DNA of 25,991 nt from a virus, in the IMG/VR virus record IMGVR_UViG_3300044695_002030, positions 1 through 25,991 of that record, one strand, 5' to 3'. Each line of letters starts with the position of its first letter. Position 1 is the stretch's first letter. Made by a program: the position numbers and the translations under genes. Under the pieces are notes generated by a model that worked only from the letters and a program-made list of their open reading frames with translations, was not told the origin of the DNA and did not search any database. This document shows, in pieces, positions 15,142 to 25,991 of this stretch.

Positions 15142-16426
15142 CTTTCTCTACGAGCATGACCGCGCCATGATCTTGGCGCCGGTCGGTGCGGGTAAAACCG
15201 CCATCACGCTGACGGCCATGTGGGAGATGTTGCGTGATAACCACGTCAAGCGCTGGCTGGTGCTGGCGCCCAAGCGCGTCTGCACCGACGTGTGGCCAGT
15301 CGAGCGTCCCAAGTGGGCAGACCGCATCAGCATGGCTCTGTGCGTTGGCACACCTAAGCAGCGTCTAGACGCCCTCAAAACCAACGCCCAAGTGGTTGTG
15401 ACCAACTACGACAACTTGCAGTGGCTGGCTGAGCAAAAACTGAACTTTGACGGCGTGGTGTTTGACGAACTTACGCGCCTCAAGAACCCGTCCGGCACAC
15501 GCTTCAAAGCGTTCTTAAAAGTAGTTGACCCCATGACAACGCGTTGGGGCTTGACTGGCTCATTCACCAGCAACGGTTTGGAAGACGTCTTCGGTCAGTG
15601 CAAAATCGTTGACCAGTCTTTGCTTGGCCGTTCTAAGGGCGCGTTCATGCAGCAATACTTTGTGCTGATCAACAAGGAGTTTGGCGAATGGGCGCCCAGA
15701 GTAGGGTCGCTTGAGAAGGTAATGAACGTGATCAAGCCTGCCACATTTGTCTTGGAGGCAGGTGAGTATAAGGACAAGTTGCCGCCTTTGAACACTGTTG
15801 AGCTGGCTTGCACGATGGATCTGGCGCCCTACAACACGATGAAAAAGGACTTTGTGCTGGAAGGCATCACGGCGGTCAACGCGGCTGTTGTCACGGGCAA
15901 ATTACAACAACTGGCGTCAGGCTTTGTGTACGACACAACGACAGCGCCGTCTGACATGCCAGGCAAGTTTACGTCTACTCAGCGTCCAATCTGGTACAGC
16001 TTGCACAAGTTTGAAAGGCTAGAGGAGTTATTAGATGAAAACCAACGCGCAAATACCATCGTTGTTTACAACTACCAAGAAGAACTCGCCGAACTCAAGC
16101 GACGCTTCGGACACCTGCAAACTCTTGATGATACGAAAGCCATCGAGCGATGGAATGCAGGCAAGATTCAATTATTGGCCGTGCATCCGAAATCAGCCGG
16201 TCACGGGCTTAACTTGCAACATGGGGGGTGTCACATGGTCTTTCTGTCCTTGCCGTGGAGTCTCGAACTTTACGAGCAAACCATCGGACGTCTGCACCGA
16301 AGCGGCCAGTCGCACCCTGTCTGGTGCTACGTAATGCTGACCAACAAAACGATTGACGAGCGTATCTGGGCGGCGCTTCACGACAAGCGCGCTATATCTG
16401 ACATTGCCATGGAGGAACTTAAATGA
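15104..16426 (+). CDS. SNF2-like superfamily 2 helicase
   Basis: A 440-residue DNA-dependent ATPase. The Q-like start LRPYQETAADFL is followed by Walker A APVGAGKT (residues 25-32), motif Ia WLVLAPKRV, the DEAD-type box VVFDELTRLKNP (DELT at 121-124), motif III-like WGLTGSFTSNG (148-158), and a C-terminal motif VI QTIGRLHRSGQ (392-402). It probably remodels or unwinds DNA for the phage recombination and replication system with the VRR-NUC nuclease. The start ATG 15104 has a strong AAGGAG at 15091-15096; the frame is open upstream but that region is the VRR-NUC gene. The stop overlaps the next ATG as ATGA. Confidence 0.93.
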   Translation: MVSLRPYQETAADFLYEHDRAMILAPVGAGKTAITLTAMWEMLRDNHVKRWLVLAPKRVCTDVWPVERPKWADRISMALCVGTPKQRLDALKTNAQVVVTNYDNLQWLAEQKLNFDGVVFDELTRLKNPSGTRFKAFLKVVDPMTTRWGLTGSFTSNGLEDVFGQCKIVDQSLLGRSKGAFMQQYFVLINKEFGEWAPRVGSLEKVMNVIKPATFVLEAGEYKDKLPPLNTVELACTMDLAPYNTMKKDFVLEGITAVNAAVVTGKLQQLASGFVYDTTTAPSDMPGKFTSTQRPIWYSLHKFERLEELLDENQRANTIVVYNYQEELAELKRRFGHLQTLDDTKAIERWNAGKIQLLAVHPKSAGHGLNLQHGGCHMVFLSLPWSLELYEQTIGRLHRSGQSHPVWCYVMLTNKTIDERIWAALHDKRAISDIAMEELK

Positions 16427-16689
16427 TTCACACCGACGAAGACGACGAGTTTGACCGCATAGCGCGTGAGAACACCATGAAGGGCCAGCCTTACTATTGG
16501 AAAGCCATGGAAGTGGTCATCCACACCAAGCGCCTATGCCCTAAATGCACAGAAGTCAAACAGTTTTTAAGGGCTAAGAACATTAACTACGTCGAGATGG
16601 ACATGGAGTCCAGCCCTGACCTACCCCATATTTTTATTGATGGCAAGCGCGTTGATGGCTTGGCCGAACTACAGGAAGCACTTAAATGA
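16423..16689 (+). CDS. Glutaredoxin-like thiol-disulfide protein
   Basis: Eighty-eight residues with a glutaredoxin fold: strand VVIHTKRLCPKCTEVKQFL with active-site CPKC (39-42), strand INYVEMDM, then LPHIFIDGKRVDGLAELQEA (67-86) holding the cis-Pro and the C-terminal helix. The usual GG after the last strand is replaced by VDGL. An acidic N-terminal extension of about 28 residues (MIHTDEDDEF...) precedes the fold. It would reduce a disulfide in an enzyme or act as hydrogen donor. No ribonucleotide reductase is present in the window, so the partner is unknown. It is coupled to the helicase and to the next gene by ATGA overlaps. Confidence 0.88.
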   Translation: MIHTDEDDEFDRIARENTMKGQPYYWKAMEVVIHTKRLCPKCTEVKQFLRAKNINYVEMDMESSPDLPHIFIDGKRVDGLAELQEALK

Positions 16690-17393: not shown

Positions 17394-18026
17394 ATGAGCT
17401 ACATCGTGGCGTCACTGCCGCCCATGAAATGTTTTGTTAAGAAAGAATTTCTATACAACGATCTCAAGGGTCACGGCGAACTTGAGCCTGCGATTTGGGT
17501 CAGTCTTAAAGCTCTGCGCGGCCAAGTATTCCGCATTGAGTCGCTGTTGCCCGCGTATGGCGCCCTGTACGACAAGCTGCCTATCCATGCCTATGTTTGG
17601 CACAAAGACGCTGGCAATCTGCCAATTGACACGCTTCAGTTGTGGGACTGCATGGGCTACCGCTTTACGGTCATTGAGAAGATCGGCCTGCGTAACCTAG
17701 GCGTCAAGTTTCTTGGCAAAGACAAAGAGTGGCACTTTGGGCGCTACTTGTTCACAGTAGACTTCTGCGCCGAGGGCATGGACTTAGACACGGGGTTTAC
17801 CGAGCAGGCTGAGGAACACAAGTCATTTAATTGGATTGCGTTAGACAATGGCCAGTTTGCCTGCCAGCCAAACAACCGATGCCTGTGGTATGACCAGAGC
17901 CTGATACCAAACGAGACAAAGTTTCCTGACTTCCAAGCCGCCCAGCGCTTATGGACGGTAGATGGCACACGTAAGTGGTCTGCTGGCGATGATTGGTTTT
18001 ACAGCATTAAGGCAAAAAATGACTAA
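17394..18026 (+). CDS. Conserved phage protein of about 210 residues, unknown function
   Basis: A 210-residue soluble protein starting MSYIVASLPPMKCFVKKEFL. It is rich in aromatic residues and strands (VFRIESLLPAYGALYDKLPI; AYVWHKDAGNLP; CLWYDQSLIP). I recall very similar proteins in other phage genomes annotated only as hypothetical. The order of segments suggests a compact mixed fold with a conserved GHGE-PA-WVS segment near residue 27-37. It is the largest gene of this operon without a role. Neighbours are replication accessory genes, but late-type function cannot be excluded. Confidence 0.85.
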   Translation: MSYIVASLPPMKCFVKKEFLYNDLKGHGELEPAIWVSLKALRGQVFRIESLLPAYGALYDKLPIHAYVWHKDAGNLPIDTLQLWDCMGYRFTVIEKIGLRNLGVKFLGKDKEWHFGRYLFTVDFCAEGMDLDTGFTEQAEEHKSFNWIALDNGQFACQPNNRCLWYDQSLIPNETKFPDFQAAQRLWTVDGTRKWSAGDDWFYSIKAKND

Positions 18027-19791: not shown

Positions 19792-20013
19792 TCATTTGTC
19801 AACCTTACTATCGAGTTTATCGAATATTTTGCCGAGCATGTCTTTAACGTCGCGCATGTCGGCTCGGTAATCATCGCGGCCAACGTAGTTCAAAGGCATT
19901 GCCCGAACGTCTGTGTCTAAGCGTTCTAGTGATCGGTAGATGTTGTTTAATATCCACCCGCCTAAGAACCCTGCCAGACTCACCGCAATGTTGAAAAGAA
20001 CTTGGGTATCCAT
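19792..20013 (-). CDS. Membrane-anchored coiled-coil small protein
   Basis: Seventy-three residues with an N-terminal membrane helix (LFNIAVSLAGFLGGWILNNI, about residues 6-25) followed by a charged helix ending DVKDMLGKIFDKLDSKVDK. Similar short proteins are common just upstream of phage lysis genes. The topology (N-terminal anchor, coiled-coil tail) resembles an inner-membrane spanin but is short. The start is coupled to the upstream stop as TAATG. Confidence 0.82.
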   Translation of the reverse strand: MDTQVLFNIAVSLAGFLGGWILNNIYRSLERLDTDVRAMPLNYVGRDDYRADMRDVKDMLGKIFDKLDSKVDK

Positions 20014-21815
20014 TATTGAGCCAATGCGTTTTGATTTTCTTGCGTGGGCGCAAGAGCGTTTTGTGTTTGCGTAATGACGTTTAGTTTGGTTGGGCTTAAG
20101 TTAGCTTGGCCAAGGGCTCTAAGCACATCAATGCGTTGCGACGCAGGAACTTTTTTCAAAAGCGTTTCAAAGTCTTGGGCAGACGCAAAACCTTTTTCAA
20201 GTTCCTTCAGCACGTTTGCGCTCATCTTGTCTTTTAAGATGTCAAGCATTTGGTTTGTCACCGTTACTTTGACATCTAAAAAGCTAGGCAAACGAAACTT
20301 GGATTGGTTAGCTTCCAAGATTATTTTCATGGCGTCTGCGCCAGCTTGCGTTTGGCGCACAACTTCAGCGTTGCGTTTTAATTCAGACTCAATGCCTTTG
20401 ACCACACCCATTTGTTGTGGTGACAATACTTGACTTAGGTCGTCGTACCGTGCCGCACCAGTTGCTTTTTTAAGCAGCGCAGTTTCACCGCGCCCTAATG
20501 CGGTCATAAATGGCCCAGCGCGCTCGCCAGCGCCAAGAGGTTGCGTAAGGACGTCTTGCATTGCACCCAAAACTTTAGCTTGGTTAACTGGAGGTGATGC
20601 GGCAGCAAAAACTTGCTGGGCGCGCTCATACCCTGGCAACGATTGTTCAATTGTTTTCTTAACGTCAACCAAGTTGCTAACAATAAATTTGTTGTCTTTA
20701 CTAGAAATCAAATCTTTAAGGTTATCCAACACCGAAGAAACTTGTTGCGCGGTAGTACTGGCATCTAAACCTGTTTTTACTTGCTCTAACGCAGACACAA
20801 GTTTGGCATTACCTGGGTTTGCGGCCAAAATTGCGTCCACTTGTTGCGTCAACGGCGCAGTGTTAACTGGCGTTAATGGCAGTGTGGCTGCGTTATAAAG
20901 CGGCTTAGATAAATTTCGCCGCGCTGTTTCGGCGGCTTGCAAATCAGGCGTAACCCCTTGCAACCTTGCCATGCGGTTTGTTTCTTGTGCTTGCGCTACG
21001 GACAACGCGTTACCGGGGGCGGTTTTAGCTTGAACGGTTTCGCCAAGATATTGAACTTGCGGTGAAGTCACATCTGCCAAAGCCTGACGCACTGTCATGC
21101 CTGGTGGCGCGTTGGCCAGCGCATTTTGCGCGGCGACTAAGTTTTGAGGCGCTCTGCCTTCTTCAGTCAACGCGTTACGCACAATATTACCCGCGCGGTT
21201 TGCTGCACGTTCACCTTTAATTGCGTCAACAACATTGCCTGCACCTTTGGCCCCCAACGCCAATCCATAGTTAGCGGCGGTAGTAACGGGTAACAATGGG
21301 TTGGTGTATTTAGCAGCAACACCCAGCACTTTAGACGCTGTGGGTGCTATGCGGGCTGTTGCTGATGCACCGCCGGTAAACAATGTAGATAGGTCAGCCG
21401 CTGCGCCAACAGGGTCAGTTGCCAAAGTGTTTTTTAATGCTTCAACGCTACCGTATCGGTCTTTGTACAGACCACCAACGGCGTTGGCTGCATCAACAGC
21501 ACGTTTGGCTGCTTCAGGTTTGTTGTCAATTTGGTTGACCAAATCAACAAGATCTTTAGGCAACAAATTTTGCAACGCGCCTGCGCCCACATCTATAACG
21601 CCCGACACAGTCTGCACGGGGTTTGTAATGGCGGTTATCAAACCTTTGTAAAAATTTGCCGCGCTTGTCCCTACGTTAGCTAACGCTTCGCCAGGCACAT
21701 CTGAAAACGATCTTCGTTGTGCAGGAATCCCGCTATCACTTGGTGTTGGCTTTGCAGTACTAAGATCAAATCCACCAGATGCAACTGGTGCGGCGGTGTT
21801 AAGATCAAAACCCAT
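20013..21815 (-). CDS. Ejection / internal virion protein, about 600 residues
   Basis: A 600-residue Ala-rich helical protein lying after two other ejection-type genes. It begins with two imperfect copies of a short motif (GFDLNTAAP and GGFDLSTAKP, residues 2-24), which I recall at the N-termini of internal virion proteins in several podophages. A hydrophobic, Gly/Ala-rich stretch at about 130-190 could insert into membranes; the rest is amphipathic helix. By position it corresponds to P22 gp16/gp20, proteins ejected with the DNA to make a channel through the cell envelope. No enzymatic domain is visible. Assignment is by gene order and composition rather than a specific match. Confidence 0.7.
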   Translation of the reverse strand: MGFDLNTAAPVASGGFDLSTAKPTPSDSGIPAQRRSFSDVPGEALANVGTSAANFYKGLITAITNPVQTVSGVIDVGAGALQNLLPKDLVDLVNQIDNKPEAAKRAVDAANAVGGLYKDRYGSVEALKNTLATDPVGAAADLSTLFTGGASATARIAPTASKVLGVAAKYTNPLLPVTTAANYGLALGAKGAGNVVDAIKGERAANRAGNIVRNALTEEGRAPQNLVAAQNALANAPPGMTVRQALADVTSPQVQYLGETVQAKTAPGNALSVAQAQETNRMARLQGVTPDLQAAETARRNLSKPLYNAATLPLTPVNTAPLTQQVDAILAANPGNAKLVSALEQVKTGLDASTTAQQVSSVLDNLKDLISSKDNKFIVSNLVDVKKTIEQSLPGYERAQQVFAAASPPVNQAKVLGAMQDVLTQPLGAGERAGPFMTALGRGETALLKKATGAARYDDLSQVLSPQQMGVVKGIESELKRNAEVVRQTQAGADAMKIILEANQSKFRLPSFLDVKVTVTNQMLDILKDKMSANVLKELEKGFASAQDFETLLKKVPASQRIDVLRALGQANLSPTKLNVITQTQNALAPTQENQNALAQ

Positions 21816-23167
21816 TATTTGACCTCTTTAAACGATTTACGATCTGGACTTACCCACGCTTTGTTGCCTGCGGCGTCACTTTCAAATGTCCAATTAGCGC
21901 CGACGCCTGCTGGACGCGCCGCACCTTTTGTAATTGATGACAACGGCGGCACGTCGGGGGCAGTACGAAGCCCCATACCTTCAATTGACGATTTAGGTAT
22001 ATCTTTAAACCGGGTGTTCCAGGCTTGTACGCTACGAGTAGCAGCTAGATGTTGAAGTCTAGCCAACTCCGTAAGTGTTTCTGGTTTAAAGTCAATTTTG
22101 CCGCCTGCAATCCCGCGCAAAAAGTTAAGGTCTTTATCTGTAAAGCCCTGCCCAGTACCCAAACCAGCGCTTTTAATTGCATCCAAAGTGCTTTGACCTG
22201 TAGCGGCGATAAGCAATTCAGTGTTGGCAATTTTTGCATTGTTGTCTGCGCCTAGTACGTTTAACCCTCGCGCAACATTTAATTTAATATCTGCAATTGG
22301 CCCTGTAAATAAATCGCCTTGTTTTACCAAGTCAATAATTCGATTAGCGCTTTCGGCCAACTGAGGTGCTTTTTCTGCCGCGCCTAACTTAGCATCATCG
22401 CGGTCTGCTATTTTTCCGGCTAAGCTCTCGCCATATTTTTTCTCAGTACTAAGGCTAATGTTTGACGCACTAGCACGAGCGATGTCTTTCTTTTGCGCCA
22501 AAACAGCAGGCGGCAAAGGCACATCCGCGTAAGTCCCCACAGTCTTAGGCACTCCACCAAGACCGGGTGTTTGAACAATATCTGTTTGACCACTACGGTT
22601 AATTGCTTGCGTAGACGGCTTATTCTCACTAATGTATTTGGTTGCACCAAGGGCAAACTGTTTTTTCCAGTCATCCAAACCAACAGGATCTTCTGGAATT
22701 CTTGCAACTTGTTCCATTAATGGAATTTTTGCAAGCGGCGAATTTTTTAGCGCAGGGTCGTTAACTACCCTTTGCAAAAACGTAGCTGCGTCTGCTTTGT
22801 TAGAAATTATGCCGGATATGTCACGATACATGGCCTGTGTATCTTGCATAAGTTTGGCGCGGCGTGCAGCTTCTTCTGTTTGTGATTTTTCAGCTTCACT
22901 AAGTTTGCCGTATATTTCGCGGCCAGGCTTGCCATATCCAGTCAACAATTGAGCGCGTACATTTGGATCAGTTAAATCAGCTTTTCTAAGAAAATTGCGC
23001 GTGCCTTCTTCTTCAGCACGCGCACGTTCATATTCGGCCATTTGCATTCGATTTAACTGGTTGGCTTGTTGCGCGTTTTGAATTTGCGACAACTGAGCGT
23101 ACTGCGCCAACTGATTAGGAAGTTCAAGTGGCCTAACGCCAAGAGCGATGTTTGGATTGAGTGCCAT
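21815..23167 (-). CDS. Ejection / internal virion protein, about 450 residues
   Basis: A 450-residue protein with a Gln/Asn-rich helical N-terminus (QLAQYAQLSQIQNAQQANQL), a charged coiled-coil segment to about 110, and a helical C-terminal domain. Toward the end it has GQGFTDKDLNFLRGIAGGKI, a segment that I have seen in phage ejection proteins, and a C-terminal tail resembling a small beta module (NWTFESDAAGNKAWVSPDRK). By position it is one of the three P22-like ejection proteins. The stop overlaps the next gene as TAATG. Confidence 0.7.
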   Translation of the reverse strand: MALNPNIALGVRPLELPNQLAQYAQLSQIQNAQQANQLNRMQMAEYERARAEEEGTRNFLRKADLTDPNVRAQLLTGYGKPGREIYGKLSEAEKSQTEEAARRAKLMQDTQAMYRDISGIISNKADAATFLQRVVNDPALKNSPLAKIPLMEQVARIPEDPVGLDDWKKQFALGATKYISENKPSTQAINRSGQTDIVQTPGLGGVPKTVGTYADVPLPPAVLAQKKDIARASASNISLSTEKKYGESLAGKIADRDDAKLGAAEKAPQLAESANRIIDLVKQGDLFTGPIADIKLNVARGLNVLGADNNAKIANTELLIAATGQSTLDAIKSAGLGTGQGFTDKDLNFLRGIAGGKIDFKPETLTELARLQHLAATRSVQAWNTRFKDIPKSSIEGMGLRTAPDVPPLSSITKGAARPAGVGANWTFESDAAGNKAWVSPDRKSFKEVK

Positions 23168-23176
23168 GTTTAATCC

Positions 23177-23884
23177 TTATCGTCCTAAACCAACGGAAGC
23201 GTTGTAGCCTGGATATGGTTCGCTCATCATAGAACCGCTACCTGTGCTACCACGCAATGCGTTAAGCAAAGCATTATTTTGAGAGTAATTTAAGTAAGTA
23301 CCCAAACCGCCAGTAATTGCATTGGCCGCGCCCACTTGGCCCGCCGCTTGAGCCGCCGCACCGCCAGTCATTAGATTGCCAACATTGGATGCATAGTTTT
23401 GGCCAGCTTGACCTAGTTGATTTACAGAAGTTTGACCAAAACCCGCCAAAGATTGCAACGGGTTAAGCCGCGCCTGACGCTCAGTTTGGTAACGATTAAA
23501 AGCGTTTGTGTATTCTTGAGTACCCATTTCTTGGCCGTAACGCTGCGCGGCTTTTAAAGCACCGCCAGAAATCAAACCACCACGAGCCGCAGCGTTGCGT
23601 TCAAGTGCTTTTTGGCCTTCAGCCAAACGGAATGCGTAGCCTGGGTCTTGCTGAAACTGGCTCATGCCAAACGGCGTATATCTAGATGCGGCTTCTAGTT
23701 CTGGCAATGCGCGAACGCCTGCCTCGCGAAACGGAGCTTGTAACTCTACTTGCCTCTCAAACTGTTCTCTTTGAAGTTCAGCAGCGCGGTCAGCCGCAGC
23801 GGCTTGCGTGCTTGCCGCGCTTTTAGACGCTTTTGCACCTACTAAACTACTAACAACCGTGGCCCCTGCTACCCATCCAGACAT
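23177..23884 (-). CDS. DNA transfer protein, P22 gp7-like
   Basis: A 235-residue protein. MSGWVAGATVVSSLVGAKAS is a small hydrophobic N-terminus, then a helical AAADRAAELQREQFERQVEL. The segment FREAGVRALPELEAASRYTP followed by QQDPGYAFRLAEGQKALERN and AARGGLISGGALKAAQRYGQ is a hallmark of phage 'DNA transfer' ejection proteins in several podophage groups. The C-terminal half is Gln/Asn/Gly-rich and low complexity. It would be packed in the virion and leave with the DNA. The start overlaps the upstream SET gene by 16 bases. Confidence 0.88.
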   Translation of the reverse strand: MSGWVAGATVVSSLVGAKASKSAASTQAAAADRAAELQREQFERQVELQAPFREAGVRALPELEAASRYTPFGMSQFQQDPGYAFRLAEGQKALERNAAARGGLISGGALKAAQRYGQEMGTQEYTNAFNRYQTERQARLNPLQSLAGFGQTSVNQLGQAGQNYASNVGNLMTGGAAAQAAGQVGAANAITGGLGTYLNYSQNNALLNALRGSTGSGSMMSEPYPGYNASVGLGR

Positions 23885-24723
23885 GGCAATTCTCCTTGTA
23901 ACGTGAGTCCAAAATTGACTCTCATTGATGCTCTGTAATCTACCAGTAATTCATCGCCTGCATGTATTTTACGCGCAGCGACTGCATAAATGTCATCCCC
24001 TACCTTTTCGGGTCTGATATTGCAGTTAAACGAATGGTTAATAAACCGCCCGCCGGGGGTTCTTTTACCATCCACTCGACCAGGGCACACAGTTTCCCCA
24101 GCTTCAAAATCTTGGGTTGCAAACAGCCCTTTGCCGTGAATCGGCGAATCGCGCAATTCCACAGCCACGCCTTCAGGCATCTCCATCAAATCAGACTCGT
24201 TATGGACAATCGTGTCCATTTCATTCTGAGTCATACCGATCTGATAAAGAAACGCCCCATAATCAATCTGCGCTCTTTGTATGTCAGTCCGGCTGTCGGC
24301 AAGGCCGCAGTCAGGCACAACATACAAACGGTCTTCTAGCACCGCCAAATCATTGCAGTCGTCTGGGTTGTCGTACACGTCCACCCAAACCACTTCGTCT
24401 TCAAACACTCGGCCTGCGCGTTGCATTCCAGCTTTTGCTGGAAAGTCGCATGGGCCAGTAAAGACTTTAATGCCGTCATCCGTATTGACCGCAATCGTAC
24501 CGCTTTCCACTCGAACGTGATACGGCGTCTTATGTTCTGCTCCAGTCAAGATTGTCCATGCGGGGATCGTAATCTTGCGCTCGTAAACGCCTGGCTTAAA
24601 AATATGCTCAGTCACAATGTTGGCCTGCGGCATTTTTAAGAGTTCATTTTGCAACGCCAAAACCTTGCCCGACATGGACAAGGTTGGTGCAAAATTAAAC
24701 CCCTTGCCGTAGGTTACACGCAT
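23869..24723 (-). CDS. Cupin-SET domain fusion, putative lysine methyltransferase
   Basis: A 284-residue two-domain protein. Residues about 35-125 look like a small phage-type cupin (HIFKPGVYERKITIPAWTIL, EHKTPYHVRVESGTIAVNTD, then VFEDEVVWVDVYDNPDD). Residues about 188-264 are a SET domain. SPIHGKGLFATQDFEAGE (193-210) holds the cofactor-binding GKG. GRFINHSFNCN (225-235) is the NHS motif. IHAGDELLVDYR (253-264) ends with the catalytic-type Tyr (Y263). No pre-SET or clear post-SET cysteine cluster is seen. It would transfer methyl from S-adenosylmethionine to a lysine, perhaps of a virion or host protein; the substrate is unknown. It lies within virion genes, coupled to the upstream gene by TAATG and overlapping the DNA-transfer gene. 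Confidence 0.88.
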   Translation of the reverse strand: MRVTYGKGFNFAPTLSMSGKVLALQNELLKMPQANIVTEHIFKPGVYERKITIPAWTILTGAEHKTPYHVRVESGTIAVNTDDGIKVFTGPCDFPAKAGMQRAGRVFEDEVVWVDVYDNPDDCNDLAVLEDRLYVVPDCGLADSRTDIQRAQIDYGAFLYQIGMTQNEMDTIVHNESDLMEMPEGVAVELRDSPIHGKGLFATQDFEAGETVCPGRVDGKRTPGGRFINHSFNCNIRPEKVGDDIYAVAARKIHAGDELLVDYRASMRVNFGLTLQGELPCLDG

Positions 24724-25058
24724 TAGGTCACCTCACGCCCAGAAACGCGGATATTGATTGCGCTGGCTGTGCCTGCAATTGTACTGATAAAGTCGCCAAT
24801 GCCAAGCACTTGGCCAACCAGTTCAGGAAACGTGTAGACCTCAGATGCCTGCAAAGTTTTGGTCTTGGTAATCAAGTTGGTGTTGCCGGCAGATCCAGAC
24901 ACTGTGACTAAGTTCACGCTGATCGTAGCGGCAGATGCGCTAATGTTAGTTGCGGTGAACTTGTCAATGATGGCCGTAACGCCAGTCGCTGTGTATTGCG
25001 TGACTTGGGTTGCTTCGGCAAATTTAGCCGGTACGAGGACTTTTACTGTGACAGTCAT
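24723..25058 (-). CDS. Beta-rich virion-type protein
   Basis: A 111-residue protein starting MTVTVKVLVPAKFAEATQVT. It is almost all short strands with Thr/Ser/Val-rich turns (FTATNISASAATISVNLVTV, then ASEVYTFPELVGQVL and INIRVSGREVT). This is the look of a jelly-roll or Ig-like decoration protein, and similar small proteins are found among phage structural genes. No cysteines. Its place between the fibre-like gene and the SET gene suggests a virion component. Exact role is unknown. Confidence 0.75.
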   Translation of the reverse strand: MTVTVKVLVPAKFAEATQVTQYTATGVTAIIDKFTATNISASAATISVNLVTVSGSAGNTNLITKTKTLQASEVYTFPELVGQVLGIGDFISTIAGTASAINIRVSGREVT

Positions 25059-25061
25059 GGT

Positions 25062-25757
25062 TTACTCCAATAATAGGCAATTGTTAGCGGCCTGTTGCAT
25101 GATGATCCAATTTGTGCCGTCAGACACCATTGTCGCCCAATTTCCTACAACTGCCAAGAGGATTGCTGTGCCAGCGACTGTACTGTCGATAGGCACAACA
25201 TTGCTAGACGCAGACACCAAGGTCTGCGCCTGCATGTTCTTAAACGTCAGATACCTTCCAACGTACAAAGACGCTGAAGGTAAGGTCACGGTGCAAGTCG
25301 AGCCTGACTTGTTATTGATAAACCAAGTCTCGTTAGCGGCAACGGTAAAGTCTGCCGTCTTGGTGACTGGCGCACTAAACAGCGCGGCAATGCTTGCGGT
25401 GATTAAACCAACGTCAACAATTGGTTGAACTTGCAACCCTTCAATCTGCTTTTGCATCTCAACCATCTGGGACTCTAAGGCAGAGCAGCAGTCGCCCAAT
25501 ACGTCAGGAATTGGTAAGGCAACTACTGGTGGCAGGGTTTCAACTTCTTGCGCCAGCGCTTGCAAGGCCGCATCGTAAGACGCAAGCAAGGACATAACGT
25601 CAGGGCCAAGGCCGCCATCATCCACCACATCAGTTGCAATGTTATTGAGCGACAAGAAAAACAAATACCACGCACGGTCAATCATACCCGTGCGAGGGTC
25701 AACCAGCGGCACTCGCGGCGGCGTGATCGGCGTTGGCGTAGCGTTAGGGCTAGGCAT
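25062..25757 (-). CDS. Fibre-like structural protein
   Basis: A 231-residue protein. The N-terminus is Pro-rich and contains PRVPLVDPRTGMIDRAWYLF, followed by FLSLNNIA, a segment typical of phage structural proteins near tail accessory genes. A short coiled coil follows (ALESQMVEMQKQIEGLQ, about 93-109). The C-terminal 95 residues are strands in a pattern common in head- or tail-fibre tips (GRYLTFKNMQ, TMVSDGTNWIIMQQ). It may trimerise through the coiled coil. The start overlaps the upstream gp10-like gene by 8 bases. Confidence 0.8.
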   Translation of the reverse strand: MPSPNATPTPITPPRVPLVDPRTGMIDRAWYLFFLSLNNIATDVVDDGGLGPDVMSLLASYDAALQALAQEVETLPPVVALPIPDVLGDCCSALESQMVEMQKQIEGLQVQPIVDVGLITASIAALFSAPVTKTADFTVAANETWFINNKSGSTCTVTLPSASLYVGRYLTFKNMQAQTLVSASSNVVPIDSTVAGTAILLAVVGNWATMVSDGTNWIIMQQAANNCLLLE

Positions 25758-25991
25758 TTGTTGGACTCAGAATAAGTTCTGCGCCCATGATTGCAATTTT
25801 CACAGGGTCAGTGGCAGACACCTCATACACTCGGTCACGCAACTTAGTGGTCATGCCCAGACGGCGCCAGATTACACGTTTGTAATATTGACCAATCTTG
25901 CCCATGGATGTCCAATGCTCGTTTGACCATGTGTGGCCACCATCGTCTGAAAAGCGAAGCATGACTTGAGGATCGTATCCTGGTGTGGCAA
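25750..25991 (-). CDS. Tail accessory / packaged-DNA stabilisation protein, P22 gp10-like (5' end cut by window)
   Basis: The reading frame is open to the right edge and ends at 25750, leaving the C-terminal 79 residues. The segment VMLRFSDDGGHTWSNEHWTS, then MGKIGQYYKRVIWRRLGMTT and RDRVYEVSATDPVKIAIMGA, is the conserved C-terminus of P22 gp10-type proteins and relatives, which close the portal vertex after packaging. Most of the gene lies outside the window. The downstream fibre-like gene starts 8 bases before its stop. Confidence 0.85.
   Translation of the reverse strand, partial: ATPGYDPQVMLRFSDDGGHTWSNEHWTSMGKIGQYYKRVIWRRLGMTTKLRDRVYEVSATDPVKIAIMGAELILSPTNA

Follow-up and report, generated by a model that had tools for sequence, protein, structure and literature searches.

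A conserved cupin–SET fusion protein encoded beside a DNA-ejection gene in a P22-type podophage and related phages

The closest described counterparts of the protein analysed here belong to PHROG 34170, which groups such proteins without a function. Its members gp30 of phage P26218, gp49 of phage PH1 and UOF81456 of podovirus ct1fd225 have the same cupin–linker–SET architecture over their full length, and their genes are located upstream of an ejection gene. Single members have already been annotated as SET proteins, and the annotation of UOF81456 reads 'pbcV-1 histone H3-lys 27 methyltransferase structure'. The N-terminal domain is homologous to a stand-alone phage cupin (PHA00672; phrog_12032/24280), represented by Bbp23 of BPP-1, gp04 of VvAW1, BA3_0007 and gp38 of X14. 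The SET domains of PBCV-1 vSET (A612L) and MLL1/SETD8 have histone substrates. In studied SET enzymes, the SET-I region contributes to the lysine channel and the peptide groove. A mini-SET protein of 99 aa, PSSM7_204 (phrog_28741), is encoded in a metabolic gene cluster of the T4-like cyanophage P-SSM7.

The fusion gene and its operon

The DNA analysed (the window) was a 25,991-base virus record. It encoded a family-A DNA polymerase and a portal of the P22 type (PF16510, 3e-176), and the virus is a P22-type, short-tailed phage. The features around the fusion gene were as follows.

20013..21815, minus strand: 600-aa ORF at the P22 gp16 position (by position only; no family match)
21815..23167, minus strand: 450-aa ORF at the P22 gp20 position (by position only; no family match)
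23177..23884, minus strand: gp7-like DNA ejection protein (phrog_598, 3.4e-45; P22_gp7 PF25688, 2.5e-4, under its cut-off)
23869..24723, minus strand: cupin–SET fusion gene P0001, 284 aa, ATG start (ORF and full-length phrog_34170 match)
23914..24171, minus strand: mini-SET domain, residues 185–270, with GKGLF (SAM site), PGRVDGKRTPGGRFINHS and ELLVDY (catalytic Tyr263) (Pfam, phmmer, AlphaFold2/Foldseek)
24172..24318, minus strand: helical linker, residues 136–184 (DYxxFLxxxGxTxxEM...D...MP), which accompanies SET, also in stand-alone SET ORFs
24319..24666, minus strand: cupin-like domain, about residues 20–135 (AlphaFold2 and Foldseek; phrog_12032, 1.7e-22)
24723..25058, minus strand: 111-aa upstream ORF, counterpart of VvAW1 gp05 by position
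25062..25757, minus strand: 231-aa ORF where relatives have the collar fibre/tail needle gene (by position only)
25750..25989, minus strand: C-terminal part of a gp10-like head closure protein, Hc3, truncated where the window ends (phrog_578, 7.4e-17)

An earlier note on this DNA had placed a cupin–SET ORF at 23869–24723; the ORF was real at these coordinates and lay on the minus strand, which the note had not given. Its translational coupling to virion and ejection genes was also confirmed. A TAATG start/stop overlap joined the fusion gene to the upstream 111-aa ORF with one shared nucleotide, and the downstream ejection ORF overlapped the fusion gene by 16 nt. The phrog_34170 profile matched the protein with an E value of 8.1e-40, aligning residues 20–269 of 284 with profile positions 19–283 of 296 and covering both domains. 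The IHGKGLF, RFINHS, and ELLVDY sequences were all present in the 284-aa protein.

Two plus-strand ORFs elsewhere in the window were recorded separately. A 210-aa ORF (17394–18026) matched phrog_3704, 'ferredoxin', with no Pfam match, and the name looks doubtful. A small glutaredoxin-like protein (16423–16689; PF00462, 4e-8) adjoined an SNF2-type helicase.

A reduced SET domain joined to a cupin

Pfam SET (PF00856) matched the fusion protein with 43.3 bits and an E value of 5.2e-11, above the cut-off of 22.4. MLL1 SET chains were found by phmmer at 8e-6 with the single sequence and at 3e-10 with a profile of 64 relatives. An AlphaFold2 model built from 60 related sequences had a mean pLDDT of 88; in the SET region, averages over ten-residue blocks were 90–98 as far as residue 270. 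When the C-terminal half of the model was compared by Foldseek, it matched the SET domains of MLL1 (9.2e-6, 28% identity) and SETD8 (2.6e-5). The SET fold proposed from the sequence was thus recovered by structure prediction, and the fold and its cofactor site are almost certainly real.

The domain was nevertheless reduced. In the phmmer alignment, residues 214–216 occupied the place of 41 residues in MLL1, about 38 fewer, and the missing segment corresponds to the SET-I region. A conserved sequence, PxRxxGxRTxxGRxxNHS, filled the SET-I place. In four control genomes, canonical host SETs matched profile positions 1–105; with the same model, phage-type members in these genomes matched positions 60–104, 61–104, and 62–104, and one matched 36–105. 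The description of the domain as 'apparently intact' holds for the GxG, NHS, and DY motif set, but the domain is a reduced form without SET-I. Methyltransferase activity is accordingly less certain than that wording implies, and the protein is somewhat more probably than not an active methyltransferase. If the domain works without SET-I, it would reveal the minimal needs of a methyltransferase.

The N-terminal half was assigned to the cupins because its AlphaFold2 model matched solved cupin structures; the best PDB match in Foldseek was 4e2g (E 3.4e-6), and tm1459 was found at 7e-6. This modelled fold supports the earlier description of a cupin-like domain fused to SET. In the Pfam search that found SET, by contrast, no cupin model matched the protein. 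Residues Gln33, His40, Arg49, Gly61, Gly75, Gly99, and Trp113 were invariant in 72 fusions with less than 90% identity, and the usual ligand set of metal-binding cupin motifs 1 and 2 was not among the invariant residues of these fusions. The half corresponds to phrog_12032/24280, labelled 'short tail fiber' and 'tail fiber adhesin', labels that are PHROG and record names only.

The cofactor and catalytic residues were not lost across homologues. Among the same 72 fusions, collected with an IMG/VR search pattern that itself included part of the conserved SET motif, residues Gly199, Arg221, Thr222, Gly225, Asn229, His230, and Glu258 were kept in all, and Gly197 and Tyr263 in 71. Four fusions (L166, L193, L202, and L230) were found by the cupin pattern alone and thus provided a check free of motif selection; GxG, NH, and the tyrosine were kept in each. 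Across 36 distinct sequences of the clade to which the window belongs, SET had a dN/dS of 0.078 and the cupin one of 0.047; these values are approximate because a simple counting method was used and dS was near 1. Both domains are under purifying selection.

Distribution, modularity, and gene context

Relatives of the fusion were found in at least 506 IMG/VR contigs. The full-length fusion was present in five annotated phages, zth2-2, Rhodoferax P26218, Pseudoalteromonas PH1, ct1fd225, and ctfPj964, and 57 annotated phage records matched at least one half. Ten contigs of bacterial assemblies carried the fusion, including a 224-kb and a 369-kb contig of Paraburkholderia. The family is thus not rare, with hundreds of IMG/VR contigs, and it is already on record as PHROG 34170. 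The remark in the earlier note that such a cupin is mostly a stand-alone phage protein was correct for many podophages.

The SET domain is an optional module, gained or lost among close relatives. In VvAW1, X14, and BA3, which share a common gene order with P26218, the cupin stood alone in the operon place of the fusion, between the Hc3/collar genes and the ejection gene. Within the window's clade, L054 and L055 had no SET, and L053 lacked SET and kept an apparent remnant of the C-terminus, VDNRALLSVNFG. The cupin DNA of L145 (with SET) and L146 (without SET) was 87% identical, and the sequences were unrelated beyond it, which marks a sharp module boundary. On the cupin tree, from which L051 was excluded because it lies at a contig end and is not countable as SET-less, SET presence switched nine times; at least five switches were forced by supported branches, and with 110 columns few forks were resolved. 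At the SET-less loci, the C-terminus of the cupin carried no other domain, only short tails.

The linker travels with SET. The two domains were 60–69 residues apart in 134 of 146 fusions. In Paraburkholderia ferrariae (L251, 5686–7133), the cupin and SET were two ORFs with a 4-nt overlap, near a terminase-like ORF, and a Rhodocyclales contig carried linker and SET alone; both of these stand-alone SET ORFs contained the linker. The SET ORF of L251 had an extra C-terminal region that resembled that of L249. Both stand-alone SET copies, L249 and L251, were outside the ejection operon, and L249 was in a replication region.

The survey for fusions beside DNA-transfer genes agreed with the proposed context. 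Among loci with enough flank, 124 of the 135 fusions were followed directly by a gp7-like ejection gene, as were 64 of the 83 cupins without SET. The gp7-like proteins were lysine-poor (2.3% in phages with SET, 2.7% in phages without), and neither their lysine content nor their conserved lysines gave a signature that tracked SET, a result that lends no support to the gp7-like protein as the methylated substrate. In P22, the cupin place is occupied by gene 14 (L252, 8911–9366), directly upstream of gene 7. The gp14 protein was considered as a cupin homologue and rejected (hhalign probability 0.1, sequences unrelated). Small proteins ending in TMLTGxxGVxxxxLxLGKxTLLG followed the cupin in BPP-1-like phages (zth2-2, L001 9825–10942; BPP-1, L005 9403–9810), and their start resembled the gp7-like N-terminus.

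Candidate functions and comparison with known systems

The conserved fusion suggests that phages may methylate either a host protein or one belonging to their own particle; the earlier note had named a capsid, ejection or host protein as a possible substrate. In the preferred reading, to which a probability of about 0.45 is given, a morphogenesis cupin docks a predicted lysine methyltransferase on the ejection/tail assembly, where its lysines would be methylated. The fusion would be a protein of the late morphogenesis operon of a P22-like podophage. The cupin is conserved with or without SET and is coupled to the ejection gene, which suggests that it helps to assemble the ejection/tail apparatus; it would be the conserved part, acting together with the neighbouring ejection or tail proteins. 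The linker and mini-SET would together be a lysine methyltransferase module, optional and exchanged, with SAM bound through GxG, N-H, and DY. Positioned by the cupin, this module may act as the particle matures and methylate one or more lysines of an assembly protein, of which an ejection or neck/tail protein is the likeliest. Provided that the enzyme is active, its target is fairly probably part of the virion or the ejection assembly. Because stand-alone copies occur outside the ejection operon, some members of the family may have a target other than an ejection protein. The main doubt about the mechanism is the missing SET-I; the next is that no substrate is visible or can be proposed from sequence.

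The absence of SET-I throughout the family is also what would be expected if the mini-SET were a SAM-binding or purely structural β-clip module without methyltransferase activity, serving as a decoration or stability domain on the cupin. SET and the phage head-decoration protein gpD belong to the same β-clip fold class (PMC5344890), and close relatives do without SET. The invariance of the Asn, His, Tyr, and GxG residues at about 30% identity is, however, not readily explained by structure alone, and such a module is considered unlikely. Somewhat less likely still is a host-takeover factor with a host protein as its methylation target, either ejected together with the ejection proteins or expressed alongside them. 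Its gene would be expected among the ejection genes, where the fusion is found, and the stand-alone copies in the replication region of L249 and in the P-SSM7 metabolic cluster need no virion role; the coupling within the late structural operon and the conserved overlap with the ejection gene nevertheless fit assembly better.

A further reading assumes a slot beside the ejection genes for protein-modifying enzymes that act on the same class of target, namely SET, the GNAT of BPP-1 and zth2-2, and perhaps gp14 of P22. The GNAT gene bbp24 of BPP-1 adjoins the cupin, that of zth2-2 is close to the cupin–SET gene, and gene 14 of P22 has the equivalent place upstream of gene 7. A GNAT was present in only 7 of 62 records, however, and could be placed near the cupin only in BPP-1 and zth2-2, so that GNAT was rejected as a general cupin partner or SET alternative. 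P22 gp14 appeared GNAT-like by eye, yet its hhalign probability against GNAT was 0.15, its shallow-alignment AlphaFold2 model had a pLDDT of 41, and Foldseek gave no match. This reading is improbable. Assembly-directed methylation by the cupin–SET protein is kept as the preferred reading. Its extension to podophages in general, with dedicated protein-lysine methylation in assembly or ejection by an exchangeable, cupin-delivered SET that lacks SET-I, is put forward tentatively.

In the open-access literature searched, no paper linked a phage SET domain with a cupin or with a tail fibre, and nothing relevant was found on Bbp23, on SET in phages, or on cupins in podoviruses. No phage-encoded SET enzyme that methylates lysines of virion or ejection proteins was described there, nor was there proteomic evidence for virion association. 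These papers likewise contained no description of the domain arrangement, the shortened SET, the gain and loss of the module, or the coupling of the fusion to ejection genes. The role of SET is directly testable, because many podophage contigs have the module and both cultivated carriers (Rhodoferax P26218 and Pseudoalteromonas PH1) and natural pairs with and without SET exist.

Compared with the known systems, the window protein shared about 30% identity with the PHROG 34170 members. The stand-alone cupins of VvAW1, BA3, and X14, which have the operon place of the fusion, differ from it in having no SET and ending in a short tail 10–60 aa past the cupin. The phage SET has the GxG, NHS, and DY motifs in common with PBCV-1 vSET and MLL1/SETD8 and resembles MLL1 and SETD8 in fold, whereas the stretch between GxG and NHS is longer in those enzymes. 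The phage domain differs from them in having no SET-I and in being joined to a cupin. PSSM7_204 of P-SSM7 (L158, 2977–3276), located between nrdB and talC, is a mini-SET of like size in which RTPLGGFVNHS replaces SET-I, but unlike the fusion it stands alone.
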